A DNA stretch of 29,652 bases from a virus: positions 1 through 29,652 of the IMG/VR virus record IMGVR_UViG_3300029826_000145. One strand, given 5' to 3'. Below the pieces are notes generated by a model. That model was not told the origin of the DNA, searched no databases, and worked only from the letters and a program-made list of their open reading frames with translations. Positions 100 to 22,143 of this stretch are shown here, piece after piece (the first letter of the stretch is position 1; each line of letters begins with the position of its first letter). The translations under genes were made by a program, and so were the position numbers.

Positions 100-2694
100 G
101 ACCACGCGCCAGTCTTGGCCCTTACTCGCGGCTGTCAGCCCTGCGGTTAAACCTGCTTTGGCGGCCGAGTCTATACCGGCCTGCAGTTCCACCCCGTACT
201 CCTCCGCAACAATAGTAGGGCGCGGGGCGGTTTGTGGTTCTGGCCGCCTACCACCACCACCACCACCACCACCACCCATGGCGGCCTGGTCGGCTCTGCG
301 GGCCTCGGCTGCACGGGCACGTTCTGCAGCTGCGCGGGCCTTTTCAGCCGCTCGCATTTCTTCCACTTTCTTAAGCTGCCCTTGCAAGTACCGCTCACCC
401 TCTGACAGCTCCTTAGTCTGTTCTCCCGCGGCTGCCGCGACCTCTCCGTATAGCTCCCCCTGTTCGGCCACTGCGCCGTTAATGTCGCTCTGCAGCTGTT
501 GCGTCTTTTCCTGTCCGTCGGCCAGCCCGCCCGCAGCCTCCGTCTGGTCGTCTCTTAGGTCCTTCTGTTCGCCCAATGCCTTATTGGTCTCGTCTTCCTT
601 CTTCTTTATTCCTCCTGCCTCTTCCTGCATGGCACGTAACTTGCTAACCATTCCGTCGGCCTCCTCCGGGTTAATTAGCCCAGAGGCCAAGCTGCGCCCA
701 ACCTCACTAATTTGCCGGTCGAAGCTGTCCAGGGCATTGGTGCCAGTCTTGGCTTTGTCAGCAAGGCCACCAACAGCCGAGGCAGTTTTAGAACTACCTG
801 CGCCAATGTCCTTAAGTCCATTGCCCAGCTGGGAAAGGCCCGAGGGCAGGTTCTGGCCCATGCCAGCAATGGCCGAGTTAAGGCGCTCTAGCTCACTGGC
901 CGAAGAGGCCGCCGCTCCCCCTGTGTCGGCTATTGCATTTGCCGCCGCCCCCGCGACTGGGGGAGTCCCGGCCAGGGAGGTATTAAGTCCCTCCGCCGCC
1001 TGGCCCATGGTGCCTAGGCTAGCTGCGGCTGGCACGGCCCCCTCTTCAATGGGGGCAAATGCTGCCCTAAGCTCCATTAGCTTTGCCTTAGTGGTCGTAA
1101 CTAGGTTAGTCGCACTTGTGGTTAGTGGGCTTGCGACCGAGGTGTCAAAAGCTAGCCGTATACGGGCACCGCCCGTTTCAAGCTGTGCGCCTGCGGCATT
1201 TAATGCCCCATTGAGGCCGTTGAGGTTAAGACTATTAAAGGCCTGTGACCAGGGCGTGGTTATGGCCGTGTCAGCAAACTGCATGGTGGCCTGTTTGGCT
1301 GGCTCGGTTATTGCGGCCAGCCCTCCGTTAATTAGGGCGCCCATTTGCCGCACACCTGCCTGGGCCGCCTGACCGGCTGCAATTATGTCACCGGTCATGA
1401 CCTGCTTAAATGCGGTGCCAAACTGGCTAATACCGCCCATGAGGCTGGAAAATATGCCAGCCATGGCGGCTGCCCATGTCTCAATAACCCCTAGCCCCTG
1501 GGGCAGGGCTTGTATGGACTCGACCAGGGCCGTAAAGCCGGTACCGACTAACATGCCTATGGCCTGTAACAGAACGCCTAGGGTTTGGGTGAGGCCCAGG
1601 ACAGCCTGGCCCGTACCAATGACCACGTCGCCCACCCGTGCCATTATGTCGAGCCAGGGAATAGTGACTGAGCTTGCCTCAATGAACCCGCGACCGAATT
1701 GCACTAGGGCTGCAATGACTGCTGTTAGTGGGTTACGGACTAGGGTCAAAAGTCCTTTTCCCAGTGCGGCAACCGCCCCGCCAAACACGCCGACCACCGA
1801 CCTAGCCGCGACCAGTCCGCCGGCCAGAAGGCCGGCGGCGGCTCCTACCTCCGCGACGCTGACGGCGGCTGCTTTAGTCTCGGTAGGCAGCCCTCGCATT
1901 GTCGTTACTAGTTCGTTAAGCCTAATGACCACGTCAGTTAGGGCGGGAAGCACCTGCTGCCCCAAAGAAATTACTAACTCGTCGAGGTTAGCCTGTAGCC
2001 TTGCAACCTGGCCGGAATAGCCGGCCGTGGCAGTGCCTATTAGCTCTACCTCGCTTCTAGTTTCGGCCAGAATAGGAACTATTCCTGCCTGTATGCGCTC
2101 CTGCAGGGTGAGTTCCTCAACTGTTTTGCCCAGTGAACGGGCGTAGGCCTGCTGTGCTGGCCCTAGGTTGGTAATAATGCCCGAAGTTTCAAGGAGTTCC
2201 GACCGGCCCGTGACCACGGCGGTGGCCACATTAGTCCAGGCCTGCTGTATGTCAAACCCGGTCAGGAGCGCAGACGCACCTGCTGCCTGCAATAGGGCGG
2301 CGGTTTGCTCAAGAGTCGCGCCCGACCGTATTAGTGTGGCTGCTGCGATTTGGGCCTGTCCACCTGTTAGTCCGAATTGGCCCGCAACCTCGTCTAGGGC
2401 CTTGGACAATGCGCCGAAGTCCACCGAGTTCTTGGCCGCCACCACTTGCAGAACCGAGAGGTTACGTTCAGCCTCAGCCGCTTTGTTGGCCGCAAATAGC
2501 AAAGCTCCGCCTAGTGCAGCTCCTGCTCCCGCCGCCATTTTGCCTAATGACATAAAGGCCCGGTCTATTTCAGCCAGGCTTTGGCGAGTTTGGGCACCAA
2601 ACCTACTAATGGCAGCACCCGCCTGGGTCAGGCCCCGGTTAAGGCCGGTTATATTGGCGTCTAGCGTAACGAGTATGCTGCCAAGGGTTGCCAT
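1..2694 (-). CDS. Tail tape measure protein, N-terminal part (continues at 29553)
   Basis: This is the first 898 residues of a protein of about 1384 residues whose gene crosses the circular joint. The frame is open from ATG at 2694 to base 1, continues in frame at 29553 and stops at 28093. The length (the longest gene), alternating hydrophobic and Ala/Gly-rich helical segments, a Gln/Glu/Lys-rich likely coiled coil at about residues 660-800 and a nine-glycine run near residue 805 fit a tape measure, which sets siphovirus tail length and lies inside the tube. The N-terminal MATLGSILVTLDANITGLNR resembles the start of many tape measures. The start is supported by TAGAAT (minus strand, 2702-2707) seven bases before the ATG. 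The next gene is a tail-tip protein coupled by an ATGA overlap, as expected for this role. Confidence 0.9.
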   Translation of the reverse strand, partial: MATLGSILVTLDANITGLNRGLTQAGAAISRFGAQTRQSLAEIDRAFMSLGKMAAGAGAALGGALLFAANKAAEAERNLSVLQVVAAKNSVDFGALSKALDEVAGQFGLTGGQAQIAAATLIRSGATLEQTAALLQAAGASALLTGFDIQQAWTNVATAVVTGRSELLETSGIITNLGPAQQAYARSLGKTVEELTLQERIQAGIVPILAETRSEVELIGTATAGYSGQVARLQANLDELVISLGQQVLPALTDVVIRLNELVTTMRGLPTETKAAAVSVAEVGAAAGLLAGGLVAARSVVGVFGGAVAALGKGLLTLVRNPLTAVIAALVQFGRGFIEASSVTIPWLDIMARVGDVVIGTGQAVLGLTQTLGVLLQAIGMLVGTGFTALVESIQALPQGLGVIETWAAAMAGIFSSLMGGISQFGTAFKQVMTGDIIAAGQAAQAGVRQMGALINGGLAAITEPAKQATMQFADTAITTPWSQAFNSLNLNGLNGALNAAGAQLETGGARIRLAFDTSVASPLTTSATNLVTTTKAKLMELRAAFAPIEEGAVPAAASLGTMGQAAEGLNTSLAGTPPVAGAAANAIADTGGAAASSASELERLNSAIAGMGQNLPSGLSQLGNGLKDIGAGSSKTASAVGGLADKAKTGTNALDSFDRQISEVGRSLASGLINPEEADGMVSKLRAMQEEAGGIKKKEDETNKALGEQKDLRDDQTEAAGGLADGQEKTQQLQSDINGAVAEQGELYGEVAAAAGEQTKELSEGERYLQGQLKKVEEMRAAEKARAAAERARAAEARRADQAAMGGGGGGGGGRRPEPQTAPRPTIVAEEYGVELQAGIDSAAKAGLTAGLTAASKGQDWRVVLKDALAQGVMDGVITGFTEALTTTGMFKDLQDM
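251..281 (-). repeat. GGT-type trinucleotide run encoding polyglycine
   Basis: A run of CCA/ACC triplets on the plus strand encodes nine consecutive glycines in the tape measure, between the coiled-coil region and the next helical segment. It is probably a flexible linker, and such a run can change length by slippage in steps of whole codons. Confidence 0.7.
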
Positions 2695-5786: not shown

Positions 5787-6290
5787 CTAACGTTTGACCT
5801 TAATGCGGGTCTTGGTTTGGCCGGTCCCCTTGCCTAACTTTTCCCACTGCGCGTTAATTTCGGCCGGTGTCATATGCTTCAAGTCCTCAACGGTCAAGCT
5901 CGGTGACTGCGGCGGGTTAGGCGCAAAGTGGCCAGGCTCGGGCGCCTTGGCCCAAGGCCTTGCGGTCAGGAACTCTTCCGCGCTCTGGCCCGAGTCGGCC
6001 AGGAGTTGGGTTAGGTCGGCTAATAGGTGGGTGGGCACCCCTTGTGCCCTTAATGCGTTTTCGGCCTTGAGTCGAGCAACCTCTTGGCGCAGGGCTTCGA
6101 CGTCTGCAGTTTGGGCTTTTGGCTCTTGGACTTTAGGCTCTGGTCCCTTTGACTCTTGGCCCTTTGCCTCGGTGGGTTTTGACTCTTGGGCTTTTGACTC
6201 CGTAACCTCGACGGCTTTAGGCTCAACGACCTCAACGGCCTGGGCCTCTACTTCTGCGGTATTAGTAACCTCTTGGTCGGTACTGTCCAT
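5787..6290 (-). CDS. Capsid scaffold-like protein
   Basis: 167 residues. The N-terminal third is an acidic, low-complexity stretch of Glu/Lys/Gln/Pro with an irregular repeat around ESK, KAQ and EPK (about residues 8-60), then a short coiled coil (VEALRQEVARLKAENALRAQ, 63-82), a linker and a basic C-terminal tail (TKTRIKVKR). Acidic helical body with basic C terminus, placed directly before the coat gene, is typical of scaffolding proteins, whose basic tail binds coat subunits during procapsid assembly. TAAAAT (minus, 6297-6302) six bases before ATG fixes the start and gives it a leaderless promoter. Confidence 0.8.
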   Translation of the reverse strand: MDSTDQEVTNTAEVEAQAVEVVEPKAVEVTESKAQESKPTEAKGQESKGPEPKVQEPKAQTADVEALRQEVARLKAENALRAQGVPTHLLADLTQLLADSGQSAEEFLTARPWAKAPEPGHFAPNPPQSPSLTVEDLKHMTPAEINAQWEKLGKGTGQTKTRIKVKR

Positions 6291-18420: not shown

Positions 18421-20955
18421 TTAGTAGTTCTTCGCGTTACCTAGACTTGCCATATGACTGTCAAATAACTCCTTGTCTACTACCTCCAACCGCCAGAACC
18501 GAGTCTTTTTGGTTCTCCCACCAGTGACCTTAATGCCTATTGCGAGGAACGCGTCTGCGTTTTCCCGCAGCCTAGCGCCCAACACCGCCCCGGTCTCTGG
18601 GGTCGTCCGGGCATAGGGTCCCCACACCTGGCTACTCCTTATAGTTAGAAGTATTTCGTCAGCCGGTGCCTCAAAGTAGCCAGGGTTGGCAAGTTGTGCC
18701 GCATAGACTAGGGGAATAGTGGTAGTCAGGGTCTCACCCTGCCTGGCCGAGTGGACTGCACCCTCTCGCACGTCGTCTATGGCCCGGTCAAGCACTCTGG
18801 CCCGCTCAGGGAATACCAGCCTAAAGAACCGCTCGGCCTTTGTGTTACGTACCTCCTTCAGGTCGCCACTGTCAACCCAGCCACCTTCGGCATGTAGGCG
18901 CATAGCCTCTGCCACTAGAGTCAGGAAGGCCCCCCACATTTTGGGGAAGTCCTCCTTAAAAGCCGCTTTAATTTCGTCGTCGTCCCTCTTCTTGCCCTTA
19001 GCCCTTGGCTCGAACTCGACAGTAAAGACGCGGTCTAGGGTGTCGAGCTTAGAGAATATGGGCGAGAGTGAGGTGACTATGCCGCCACCGTCAATGCGGG
19101 CATGTACCATTGTGTCTCGTGAGTACGCGGCCCTGTAGGTATATATACCTCCAGTGGCTGCCACGTCTATGGTGTTAGCCAGTGCCATTGTTGCGTGCAC
19201 TAGGTTGTCCACCAGAATGCACCACTGTTGCGCTTTGTATTTCTTTAAGTCGTCTTCATTGTCCTTGACGGTATGTCGGCCGGTCGGGTTGACAAAGTTC
19301 AATACCCACTCTGCGGCCGAGCTTTTACCTGAACCCTTACGCCCAACAAAGTTGAGCCAGAATTGCGGGTTGTCGGGCGTGTACCAAGAGAACATAGCCA
19401 AAATTATTAACGCCTGTTCCTCCTCTCCGACCTGGACATACTCTTTGAATAGCCGCGTAAAGGTGCTCTTGGCTTCCTCGACACCACCCGCAAACTCCGG
19501 CCGCGGCATTTTCTCCACGTCGTCGCGGCTAAACTTAACGCCCTCGGGCAGTTCCCAGTCCTCAATGACACGCCACCCACCTGGCGTTATTTCAACAATG
19601 CCATTACCGGCAGTGTCGAGGTACACGGCCCTGCCTAGTGGCGCAATACGCCGTCTTAGCCTGTAGGTGGGGACGTCCATGTCCAAGAGTGCGCGAGCAA
19701 CCTCGGTGACTGCCTCACCCACCGTCTTTTGTTGCATGCCCGCCGGGTCTAGTATTCTCACAAACCGGGCAATTAGGGCACCGTTTAGAGGTGACTCCCA
19801 GAGTATGGGGAAGTCGCCCATTTCCGTGCTCAGGTAAATTAGGCGGTCTTCCTCGTTCCTATAAATGTCGGTGACTACTTGGCCCCATGCCCCAGCCCTC
19901 ACCCTGGCCTTCATGAGGTTTAGGGCCGAGACCTTGCCTTTACCTGTAGGCTCTGTCTCCGGTGCCGTGTTGCCAATGGCGCCGAGCTTAATTGGCTCGG
20001 GGTACTTTATGACCTCGCCTACCACGGCTGGCGCCTGTCTTTGGCGTCGAGGCTTCCACCAGTCAGGGTCAAAGCCCATAGGGTCTGGGTCTATTTTTAA
20101 GGGCCGGTCGCGGCCCTTTAACACGGCCCAACTCACGGCACTCCATGCCTCAAATTGCGGCAACCCGCACGCCAGCCCAGCCTGGTACATTGTGTCCCAT
20201 ACCCGGCTCTCTGGCATGCCATGTGCAATAAGGCCAGCTGCCGAGAGCCCATTGTTAATTAGGGCGCCATGCCTCCCGCCTTCCGGCGTGGTGGCTACAT
20301 TGTCGGCAAACTTGTGTAAGAGGCCCTCTAGTCGAGGCGTTGAGACCTGGGTGGCAGTACGCCGGGCAATTTCCTCCTTACTAATGGGCACTAGCATTTG
20401 GCCGTAGTTACCGGCGGCTTTCTGGAGATGCTCTAGGAGGCTTGCCGGCACCATAGGCAGGTCTTCAACTGGCACTAGTGGCACTACCCACTCATAGCCC
20501 TGGCCGTCGTACTGGGAAGGCGTGGCGACTAGGTAGGTAGTCCCCAGCCCGCGCAAGTCTAAGCCTTTGGCTAGCTTTACCTTAGAGGTTAGTCTTGTAC
20601 CTAGTGGCACTCGCATGAATACATGCACGCCACCCGGCGTTTTCTGGGCTGGGTACTCTCCTAGTTCCGGCCAGGTGTTAAAGAACATTTGACGGGCCTG
20701 CTCTTCGTCGAAGTCAAGAACTAGAACATTCTCAGGTGGTGTAATGGCTAGGTTGTGGGCCTTGCCCTTAAACCACCTCTCTAAAGTGGCCTGGTCAGTG
20801 GTGGCATTATTCTTGCCATTGCCCACAAGTTCAGTGACCGGCGCCTTGTTATTCTCGTTCTTCTCGTTCCTACCAGTCCTGACCGGCAAAACCGGCCAGC
20901 CCATTTGGGCATATTGCAAAGCCCAGTCTAATAGTGTACTATTTGGTTGGTTCAC
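18421..20955 (-). CDS. Primase-polymerase/helicase replication protein
   Basis: 844 residues. Residues 1-180 are a bifunctional primase-polymerase domain: VLVLDFDEE (Asp81, Asp83) holds the catalytic D-x-D, TPGGVHVFM the conserved His111, and GLDLRGLGTTYLVATPS the following conserved strand. A helicase-type ATPase follows: FVGRKGSGKSS (about 536-546) is Walker A and WCILVDN (about 578-584) Walker B. The C-terminal 150 residues may be a DNA-binding domain. Together the enzyme can prime and unwind at the adjacent iteron origin. The start is GTG with AAGGAG seven bases upstream. No separate DNA polymerase is encoded, so extension likely relies on this protein or the host. Confidence 0.9.
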   Translation of the reverse strand: MNQPNSTLLDWALQYAQMGWPVLPVRTGRNEKNENNKAPVTELVGNGKNNATTDQATLERWFKGKAHNLAITPPENVLVLDFDEEQARQMFFNTWPELGEYPAQKTPGGVHVFMRVPLGTRLTSKVKLAKGLDLRGLGTTYLVATPSQYDGQGYEWVVPLVPVEDLPMVPASLLEHLQKAAGNYGQMLVPISKEEIARRTATQVSTPRLEGLLHKFADNVATTPEGGRHGALINNGLSAAGLIAHGMPESRVWDTMYQAGLACGLPQFEAWSAVSWAVLKGRDRPLKIDPDPMGFDPDWWKPRRQRQAPAVVGEVIKYPEPIKLGAIGNTAPETEPTGKGKVSALNLMKARVRAGAWGQVVTDIYRNEEDRLIYLSTEMGDFPILWESPLNGALIARFVRILDPAGMQQKTVGEAVTEVARALLDMDVPTYRLRRRIAPLGRAVYLDTAGNGIVEITPGGWRVIEDWELPEGVKFSRDDVEKMPRPEFAGGVEEAKSTFTRLFKEYVQVGEEEQALIILAMFSWYTPDNPQFWLNFVGRKGSGKSSAAEWVLNFVNPTGRHTVKDNEDDLKKYKAQQWCILVDNLVHATMALANTIDVAATGGIYTYRAAYSRDTMVHARIDGGGIVTSLSPIFSKLDTLDRVFTVEFEPRAKGKKRDDDEIKAAFKEDFPKMWGAFLTLVAEAMRLHAEGGWVDSGDLKEVRNTKAERFFRLVFPERARVLDRAIDDVREGAVHSARQGETLTTTIPLVYAAQLANPGYFEAPADEILLTIRSSQVWGPYARTTPETGAVLGARLRENADAFLAIGIKVTGGRTKKTRFWRLEVVDKELFDSHMASLGNAKNY

Positions 20956-20968
20956 GTCGTTCTCCTTG

Positions 20969-20993
20969 TGCCCGGTCGCTTCCGGGCATTTTT
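20969..20993. promoter_or_regulatory. Hairpin in the primase leader, terminator-like on the plus strand
   Basis: TGCCCGG (20969-20975) and CCGGGCA (20982-20988) with loop TCGCTT, followed on the plus strand by TTTTT. On the minus strand it lies in the primase leader between the -10 box and the AAGGAG. The minus strand also holds an ATG at 20989 opening a 16-codon frame (MPGSDRAQGERREPTK) that overlaps the primase GTG, a possible leader peptide. Confidence 0.5.
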
Positions 20994-21000: not shown

Positions 21001-21162
21001 GCTCTATTGCGCCTGCCCCGTCGGGTCAATAGCCCTTGTGGGAAGTTAACAAAGCCTATGTTACTACTTCTGGGCCAAGCACCCGCCGCTCTTGCTCAGA
21101 GGGGCTAACGCCACCAGCCCGCCAGCCAGGCCGACTATACTAATGAAGTCATATAAAGACCT

Positions 21163-21204
21163 CCGGCGCCAGGGCCTTCCTCCCTCTGGCGCCGGTTTTA
21201 TTTT
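21163..21204 (+). terminator. Strong rho-independent terminator
   Basis: CCGGCGCCAG (21163-21172) pairs with CTGGCGCCGG (21086 + 100 to 21195), extended by GG/CC across one bulge, followed by TTTTATTTT. Nothing recognisable is encoded upstream on the plus strand, so it may end a short RNA starting after the TATACT box at 21136-21141, or block readthrough. Confidence 0.75.
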
Positions 21205-21234: not shown

Positions 21235-21333
21235 ATGCCCTACGAGGCCCCTCTCAAAAGTCGGCAGAGTAATTGGCCCGCCCTAGTACAGGTACCTCTC
21301 CTCGTGGCTTGTAGTGCCTGCCATGGCCATTAG
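21235..21333 (+). CDS. Possible micro-protein with CSACHGH end
   Basis: 32 codons, ending ACSACHGH, a metal-binding-like Cys/His cluster similar in spirit to the C-terminal CESC of the next small gene. There is no ribosome site, and the only promoter is a weak TTGACC-N17-CACAAT whose -10 box touches the ATG. Weakly supported; listed because of the neighbouring Cys-pair proteins. Confidence 0.25.
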   Translation: MPYEAPLKSRQSNWPALVQVPLLVACSACHGH

Positions 21334-21347
21334 GCCTGTTTAGGCCT

Positions 21348-21353
21348 TAGAAT
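21348..21353 (+). promoter_or_regulatory. -10 box of the tRNA-like RNA
   Basis: TAGAAT followed by exactly six bases and then G21360, the first base of the predicted acceptor stem. It uses the same spacing as leaderless mRNAs here, so the RNA can begin directly at its mature 5' end. Confidence 0.65.
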
Positions 21354-21359
21354 TGTTGC

Positions 21360-21453
21360 GGGGACGACTAGGTTCGACCGGTCTAGGGCGCAAAGCCCGG
21401 CCCGCACCTTATGGGCGACTGGGACGCGGGTGCAATTCCCGCCGTCTCCACCA
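21360..21453 (+). ncRNA. tRNA/tmRNA-like RNA, 94 nt, with encoded CCA
   Basis: GGGGACG (21360-21366) pairs with CGTCTCC (21443-21449) in a 7-bp acceptor stem whose third pair is G-U, the main identity of alanine tRNAs and tmRNA. Then come A (21450) and CCA. A T-arm (GCGGG, loop TGCAATT, CCCGC; 21426-21442) joins directly. The 5' side has ACTAGGTTCGACCGG, like the GGUUUCGAC block behind the acceptor of tmRNA, and a CTAG/CTAG D-like stem. The middle folds as a GGC/GCC hairpin and GCCCG/TGGGC (21400-21416) with a seven-base loop CACCTTA. A normal tRNA is unlikely: no U33, an extra hairpin, G instead of T in the T-loop. A full tmRNA is about 350 nt, so the message domain is missing. Confidence 0.65.
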
Positions 21454-21613: not shown

Positions 21614-21832
21614 ATGCCCGACTCCGGCCCTGGCCCAAAGGAGTCAGGACAAGCCCTGACACCTAAAGCCGAACTCTGTCCAGGCTGTAAGCTCAAGAGT
21701 CCGGCCTACCGCGCGGCCCTGGTCGCGGAGGCTTTGGGACTTAGGCCGTCAATGCCTAGAGAGTCCTATAGGCCAGAGTTGCCGGGTTGTCAGTTTTGCC
21801 CTAGGAACTATTCCGGCAAATTGCCCACGTGA
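21614..21832 (+). CDS. 72-residue zinc-ribbon-like protein
   Basis: Two Cys pairs, CPGC (about residues 22-25) and CQFC (about 59-62), 33 residues apart, as in small zinc-ribbon or treble-clef proteins, separated by a helix (SPAYRAALVAEALGL). No good ribosome site; translation may be coupled to the gene three bases upstream. Such proteins often bind nucleic acid or polymerase, but the target is unknown. Confidence 0.6.
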   Translation: MPDSGPGPKESGQALTPKAELCPGCKLKSPAYRAALVAEALGLRPSMPRESYRPELPGCQFCPRNYSGKLPT

Positions 21833-21876: not shown

Positions 21877-22143
21877 ATGAGCTTGAGTAAGCCTAACGTA
21901 AAGACGGAGGTAACTAAAAATGGCAAGACTTACGTAAGTCTTGCCGAGGCCGCCCGGAGGCTTGGAGTCTCTAGGCAACGGGCCAGCCAGTTGTTTATGA
22001 GCTTCCCTACCGAGGACGTTGTTCCGGTGGGGGCCCGGAACTTTGTCTCTGTGGACTGGGTTGAGGCTATGCAACCGGCCAGGGAAGAGTTCAGGGCCCG
22101 TACCACCGAGGTGCCGGTTATGGTCGAGGTTGAGCAGGACTAG
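21877..22143 (+). CDS. Helix-turn-helix DNA-binding protein
   Basis: 88 residues. YVSLAEAARRLGVSRQRASQLF (about 19-40) is a helix-turn-helix of the MerR/excisionase type, followed by a likely wing (VVPVGARNFVSVDWVEAM). It is the only clear transcription-factor-like protein in the genome. No integrase is present, so a regulator is more likely than an excisionase. Its own gene contains a perfect 24-bp palindrome at 21922-21945. The last four bases overlap the convergent MuF-like gene. Confidence 0.75.
   Translation: MSLSKPNVKTEVTKNGKTYVSLAEAARRLGVSRQRASQLFMSFPTEDVVPVGARNFVSVDWVEAMQPAREEFRARTTEVPVMVEVEQD
21922..21945 (-). terminator. Perfect palindrome inside the regulator gene; terminator of the late minus strand
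   Basis: GGCAAGACTTAC followed at once by its reverse complement. Read on the minus strand it is followed by ATTTTTAG, a 10-bp stem with ACGT loop and T-run, 195 bases past the last late gene (stop at 22140). It is therefore a credible terminator for the terminase-portal-MuF transcript while coding for protein on the other strand. A symmetric 24-bp site may also bind a dimeric regulator. Confidence 0.65.

Follow-up and report, generated by a model that had tools for sequence, protein, structure and literature searches.

Bacteria use tmRNA to free stuck ribosomes. Its tRNA-like domain (TLD) is the part recognised by alanyl-tRNA synthetase (AlaRS), EF-Tu and SmpB, and SmpB substitutes for the anticodon arm that the domain is missing.

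Mycobacteriophage DS6A has a tmRNA that consists of the TLD only (PMC4131195, PMC11915505), and is the only phage named as carrying one in these two papers. According to their passages on this RNA, which cite Mao 2009, tmRNA is strongly inhibited by a DS6A-like TLD molecule, perhaps because this ties up SmpB (PMC4131195, PMC11915505); the corresponding passage of the 2014 paper adds that inhibition does not need charging (PMC4131195). A 2025 tmRNA database holds nine 'standard, no CDS' and 72 'permuted, no CDS' entries among 97,179 sequences, 79 of them from phages (PMC11915505). Mitochondria have retained tag-less tmRNAs alongside SmpB, and a role in dealing with incomplete mRNAs is still ascribed to them (PMC11915505). 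In the open-access literature we found no description of a wide phage family of TLD-only tmRNAs. The window analysed here, a tailed-phage contig of 29,652 bases that is possibly a fragment, carries a gene for a tmRNA-like RNA of this kind.

Results

A 94-nt tmRNA-like RNA

The gene occupies positions 21360-21453 (+), giving an RNA of 94 nt from G21360 to A21453 with the layout GGGGACG-ACTAGGTTCGA-CCGGTC-TAGGGCGCAAAGCCCGGCCCGCACCTTATGGGC-GACTGG-GAC-GCGGGTGCAATTCCCGC-CGTCTCC-ACCA. Its 5′ terminus (ACTAGGTTCGACCGG) and 3′ terminus (GGGACGCGGGTGCAATTCCCGCC) are the two conserved ends of the TLD. Using cmscan against Rfam, the RNA was assigned to the tmRNA family RF00023 (53.5 bits, cut-off 47, E 1.5e-18), the sole family that reaches its cut-off within the window. 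The alignment runs from the first to the last position of the model (1-374) with the interior deleted, indicating that tag message, resume codon and pseudoknots are missing. In the minimum free energy (MFE) fold (-42.5 kcal/mol, z -1.6) the acceptor stem, P2 and the T arm all form. The acceptor stem (GGGGACG/CGTCTCC) is paired in 7/7 positions, contains G3-U70 and is followed by A73 and an encoded CCA; P2 has 6 bp and the T stem is paired in 5/5 positions, while the T-loop, TGCAATT, is atypical and without T-psi-C. The features of the RNA are as follows (all + strand).

21360-21453, TLD-only tmRNA, 94 nt (RF00023, 53.5 bits; model R1, 49.4 bits; MFE fold)
21360-21366, acceptor 5′ strand GGGGACG, holding G3 of G3-U70 (7/7 pairs with 21443-21449)
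21367-21377, D region ACTAGGTTCGA, conserved tmRNA 5′ motif GG(T)TTCGA (alignment)
21378-21383, P2 5′ strand CCGGTC (pairs with 21417-21422)
21384-21416, insert replacing message and pseudoknots (MFE fold; no GCN-to-stop tag frame)
21386-21398, insert hairpin 1, GGGC/GCCC (MFE fold)
21400-21416, insert hairpin 2, GCCCG/TGGGC (MFE fold)
21417-21422, P2 3′ strand GACTGG (fold, alignment)
21423-21425, GAC linker, conserved in tmRNA (alignment)
21426-21442, T arm GCGGG TGCAATT CCCGC (5/5 pairs)
21443-21453, acceptor 3′ strand CGTCTCC with U70, A73 and encoded CCA (sequence)

ARAGORN called neither a tRNA nor a tmRNA in this region. In no frame of the 94 nt does a stop follow a GCN resume codon, so the RNA has no tag. 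By its model score and predicted fold, the 94-nt RNA is a tmRNA reduced to the tRNA-like domain (TLD-only, CDS-less). The preliminary description of the locus had given the same 94 bases, with the 7-bp acceptor stem, G3-U70, a T-arm, an encoded CCA and ends close to those of tmRNA, and had reported the tag message and pseudoknots as missing, together with the U33 and T-psi-C of a real tRNA; our analysis confirms these points and shows no anticodon arm.

Promoter and genomic surroundings

The RNA lies in a noncoding stretch between a Prim-Pol gene on one side and two small + strand ORFs on the other:

18421-20955 (-), Prim-Pol primase gene
21324-21353 (+), weak promoter-like site, TGGCCA, 18 nt, TAGAAT (9/12 match, unproven)
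21614-21832 (+), ORF of a CxxC-pair protein
21877-22143 (+), small ORF with a weak excisionase/regulator match

TAGAAT, at 21348-21353, stands exactly six bases before G21360, as had been described. That the RNA has its own promoter is unproven, because the site matches in 9/12 positions with a poor -35 element (TGGCCA), and two sites of that quality were found in 1.3 kb versus 0.4 expected. Similarly, the block of Cys-pair proteins and a regulator proposed earlier is present, but its position 'away from structural genes' was inexact: the portal/terminase block starts 1.3 kb downstream of the RNA, with Prim-Pol on the other side. The record also encodes a terminase large subunit, a major head protein and a weak portal match. 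We found no SmpB or RF-1-domain protein, and no tyrosine integrase (PF00589) or resolvase (PF00239) domain, in this record, which may be a fragment. Nor was a close phage relative of the window found: capsid and terminase matches among phage isolates are below 40% identity among the matches listed, and a terminase search for sister phages gave only a 25% relative.

The noncoding stretch before the RNA also contains a terminator-like hairpin at 20968-20989 (+) and a second one at ~21162-21195 (+), identified by eye because its loop exceeds the length that the scan allows. This stretch may give rise to other small transcripts.

A family of TLD-only RNAs in phages

Relatives were sought by scanning IMG/VR with DNA patterns that place the 5′ TLD motif near the 3′ TLD motif. 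The scans found at least 111 distinct TLD-only RNAs in phage contigs, the window RNA included, all with the 7-bp acceptor stem, P2, the T arm and G3-U70. Among the matches listed, their lengths lie between ~65 and 126 nt and cluster strongly around 80. Together with four cultured-phage loci (114 in all), the carrier loci form at least 71 DNA-similarity groups with GC contents of 27 to 70%, and each of five carriers that were spot-checked has tailed-phage genes. Among the matches listed, 24 of the 111 metagenomic RNAs lie within 500 bp of a called tRNA. Left out of the family were most acceptor-pattern matches, which are ordinary phage tRNA-Ala with the acceptor GGGGACG, and nine 3′ tmRNA fragments from phages and genomes in which the acceptor stem only partly fits (L062, L069, L089, L102, L106, L224, L225, L230 and L231).

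One of the IMG/VR patterns, which covers the canonical GGTTTCGAC that GGTTYGAC misses, was also applied to the GTDB genome collection. Among 22 distinct matches six fit the TLD-only plan, and five of these six are on contigs that carry phage-like genes, some by weak match only; none was found near the sixth (L245). The remaining matches that were inspected are 3′ tmRNA fragments. The phage-like genes on these GTDB contigs suggest that TLD-only RNAs are phage-borne.

To score the window RNA against its relatives, we used a covariance model, R1, built from 20 TLD-only RNAs of other phages with the window RNA left out. R1 matches the window at 21360-21450 (49.4 bits, E 3.3e-11) and nowhere else, and other tRNA-like matches in the searched loci reach at most ~29 bits. 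Both covariance models, RF00023 (above its cut-off) and R1, thus bear out the tmRNA-like reading. Many ~80-nt members (about 40 of 49 non-redundant later ones) share a P2 cap, AAAR-CCN-loop-NGG-A, with a short P2 and a 3-bp hairpin; the cap is not in the window RNA, which has two longer hairpins instead. Judged by model score and layout, the window RNA is an outlying member of the phage TLD-only family. ARAGORN does not call most members, which is why annotators miss these genes.

Three contigs of the collection show further features. L077 carries two different TLD-only tmRNAs, at 88-200 and 798-865 (+), ~600 bp apart. In L189 a TLD-only tmRNA is preceded on its own strand, at a distance of ~105 nt, by a Pistol ribozyme (RF02679, 51.9 bits) at 6093-6154 (-), which might process the transcript. 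L242, a contig binned with the archaeon Nitrosotalea, has a TLD-only tmRNA at 2593-2678 in the vicinity of a phage-type RNA-binding protein (phrog_850), and is probably a misbinned phage contig.

TLD-only RNAs in cultured phages

BLAST of the 94-nt RNA against phage isolates returned 3′ TLD pieces only, and those examined include three permuted tmRNAs, of Bordetella phage PHB04, Tunturiibacter phage Tunturi_4 and Caulobacter phage CcrPW, which are of a different kind and were rejected as relatives. In all three records (L005, L006 and L007) the permuted two-piece tmRNA has no annotated RNA feature. A gene for an RF-1-domain, release-factor-like protein lies directly upstream of the permuted tmRNA in Tunturi_4 (L006, 618-965), and the two form a possible phage ribosome-rescue module. 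With family members as queries, BLAST identified six named Streptomyces phages, LuckySocke, GiJojo, pSt2308, Shaeky, Alone3 and BRock, whose copies score 60-91 bits with R1; when further members and the window RNA served as queries against the isolates, no match was obtained at 1e-4. The RNA is unannotated in all six records, and GiJojo has a hypothetical protein annotated across the locus. Five of the phages, the larger ones, carry the RNA directly after tRNA-Val within a tRNA array; an RNA ligase gene follows downstream wherever the sequence was inspected far enough. In Shaeky the RNA lies between tRNA-Phe and tRNA-Leu. This synteny with tRNA arrays argues against an attachment site or a relic.

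Two other phage RNAs came to our attention. T4 stable RNA C (species 1 RNA; NC_000866 70908-71046; L259 4909-5047, -) scores 23.9 bits with the mini-tmRNA model, above the T4 tRNAs of the same stretch; its 3′ part is TLD-like, with G3-U70 in T4, and BLAST matched it in 721 phage records. In more distant T-even relatives the pair is G3-C70 or A3-C70. Alanine identity is thus not conserved, and we rejected RNA C as a diverged mini-tmRNA with an alanine TLD. Aeromonas phage Ah1 (L009, 1917-1990, -; same sequence in L008) has, among its tRNAs, an unannotated 74-nt RNA, GGGGACG...CGTCTCCACCA, with the acceptor GGGGACG/CGTCTCC and CCA, no GGTT motif, no tRNA called and an R1 score of only 18.7 bits.

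Selection on structure and on alanine identity

The pattern applied to both IMG/VR and GTDB constrains the acceptor stem at U70-C71-C72 alone and leaves P2 free. Among the matches listed, the acceptor is paired in 7/7 positions in 89 of its 90 distinct viral matches, and P2 has at least 5 bp in 79 of the 90. In an alignment of 20 members, 98.3% of cells are paired, versus 68.9% after shuffling (0 of 500 shuffles as good), and no slid register comes near the observed pairing. The stems of the family covary strongly: 17 of the 21 pairs change on both sides, and the 3-bp hairpin of the P2 cap covaries too. Selection on the window copy is inferred from the family, since this copy has no close relative.

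G3-U70 and A73 are the classical identity elements for alanyl-tRNA synthetase. Across 78 non-redundant members, acceptor pairs 4-6 show four or five pair types, while pair 3-70 is always G-U, a constancy to be read with the search in mind (it fixed U70, some patterns also fixed G3, and the finder required the full acceptor stem and P2). Where the search left both G3 and A73 free, both are invariant in 83 of 83 members among the matches listed. Alanylation of TLD-only RNAs therefore seems to be under selection, and these RNAs are probably charged with alanine. We also looked for hidden short tags: a GCN-to-stop frame of at least four codons occurs in 17 of 78 relatives, versus 9.2 in shuffles, and no frame is shared. 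As most relatives have no such frame and none is shared, the family is not a tag system.

Discussion

The interpretation offered in the preliminary description was largely right: a tmRNA-like, tag-less, probably alanine-chargeable RNA that may act as a decoy fits the sequence, the Rfam and R1 scores, the relatives and published precedent. The mechanism we favour, with modest confidence, is inhibition by an alanylated decoy, which would draw SmpB and stalled ribosomes away from host tmRNA. The trimmed RNA would be charged with alanine by host AlaRS, bind EF-Tu and host SmpB, and replace host tmRNA in the A site of stalled ribosomes. Lacking a resume codon, it could not tag; it would titrate SmpB and block host trans-translation during infection. 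As a result, unfinished phage proteins might be spared tagging, or a host quality-control or defence response might be blunted. Two features of the window RNA, the lack of the common ~80-nt P2 cap and the atypical T-loop TGCAATT, count against the decoy. Inhibition is reported, in the passage concerned of PMC4131195, to need no charging, and strict conservation of G3-U70 would accordingly be superfluous in a pure SmpB titrator. This conservation, with that of A73 and the cap, argues for a step beyond titration. A more tentative proposal, which we think somewhat doubtful, is that the RNAs are a dedicated family across many phage lineages, with the window RNA outlying, in which a TLD charged with alanine and bearing a short P2 arm, often with the cap AAAR-CCN-loop-NGG-A, enters host ribosomes with SmpB for dead-end capture or tag-less release, beyond soaking up SmpB.

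Since the inhibition described for the DS6A-like molecule does not depend on strict G3-U70 and A73, charging probably contributes to what the RNA does, and tag-less rescue consequently remains the main rival to the decoy. The nascent chain of a stalled ribosome would then be transferred to the alanylated RNA with SmpB, and a hydrolase (Pth, ArfB or a release factor) would release the peptidyl-RNA, which would free the ribosome with no tag added. Such an RNA would be a stripped but working rescue RNA and not an inhibitor. The invariance of G3 and A73 where the search left them free, which a pure SmpB titrator would not need, is consistent with such a role, as are the persistence of mitochondrial tag-less tmRNAs with SmpB (PMC11915505), the location of the RNAs in translation cassettes of Streptomyces phages and the RF-1-domain protein adjoining the permuted tmRNA of Tunturi_4. 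We nevertheless regard it as unlikely, given that a similar RNA inhibits tmRNA (in the DS6A passage of PMC4131195) and that the record, perhaps a fragment, shows neither SmpB nor an RF-1-domain protein.

A functionless remnant, either a host ssrA that lost its middle or an attP carrying tmRNA ends, is improbable. It is true that ssrA often serves phages and islands as attB, that some contigs carry 3′ tmRNA fragments (L062, L069, L089, L102; L224, L225) and that the record has no SmpB, but an attP site holds the 3′ part alone, and the window RNA has both ends and a paired P2; furthermore, the family's stems covary, the RNA is syntenic in several Streptomyces phages, and the record, though perhaps incomplete, shows neither a tyrosine integrase nor a resolvase domain. 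We give almost no credence to the RNA being an atypical tRNA-Ala or supplying the acceptor piece to a permuted two-piece tmRNA. G3-U70, A73 and CCA are present and RF04321 matches the 3′ half, but only there and with 26.1 bits versus 47; there is no anticodon arm, ARAGORN calls no tRNA, and RF00023 is the only family to reach its cut-off. A longer split tmRNA with its coding part elsewhere, which the preliminary description had raised as the outcome that would speak against it, finds no support either: the order is the standard 5′-to-3′ one, RF04321 gives no full-length match, and no second, coding piece was found in the window.

The TLD-only tmRNA as a kind is already known from DS6A, and the decoy has an experimental precedent in the passages cited above. 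What is new, judging from the genomes compared, is that the kind is widespread in phages, strongly conserved in structure, alanine-specific by its identity elements and present in cultured phages. At least 111 distinct examples from many unrelated phages indicate that stripping tmRNA to the TLD is a recurrent phage device, one that probably jams or bypasses bacterial ribosome rescue. If this is true, ribosome rescue joins the host systems that phages manipulate with RNA mimics. Because the alanine identity is invariant, the RNA is probably charged and its function is testable, and its presence in cultured Streptomyces phages makes deletion and reporter tests feasible.

The closest known RNA is the DS6A TLD-only tmRNA (tmID 11587), likewise a phage gene with little beyond the TLD and no tag (PMC4131195). 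The window RNA has a two-hairpin insert in P2, and DS6A is likened to it by description and not by sequence; the window phage has no close relative in the collections searched. With the standard tmRNA (RF00023) the RNA shares the 5′ and 3′ TLD motifs, the G3-U70 acceptor, P2 and CCA, but that model has 374 positions with tag message and pseudoknots, whereas the window RNA has 94 nt and neither. Mitochondrial tag-less tmRNAs (jakobids, oomycetes; RF02544) have also kept the TLD and lost the reading frame, but they are usually permuted and organellar, with a nucleus-encoded SmpB (PMC11915505). The plastid tmRNA of Mallomonadaceae (~65 bp) has no CDS either (PMC11915505), and differs in being organellar and shorter. 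Finally, the permuted two-piece tmRNAs of phages (RF04321; Bordetella PHB04, Caulobacter CcrPW, Tunturi_4) are phage-borne with a similar 3′ TLD, but in contrast to the window RNA they have the 3′ piece upstream of the coding piece and keep the tag region.
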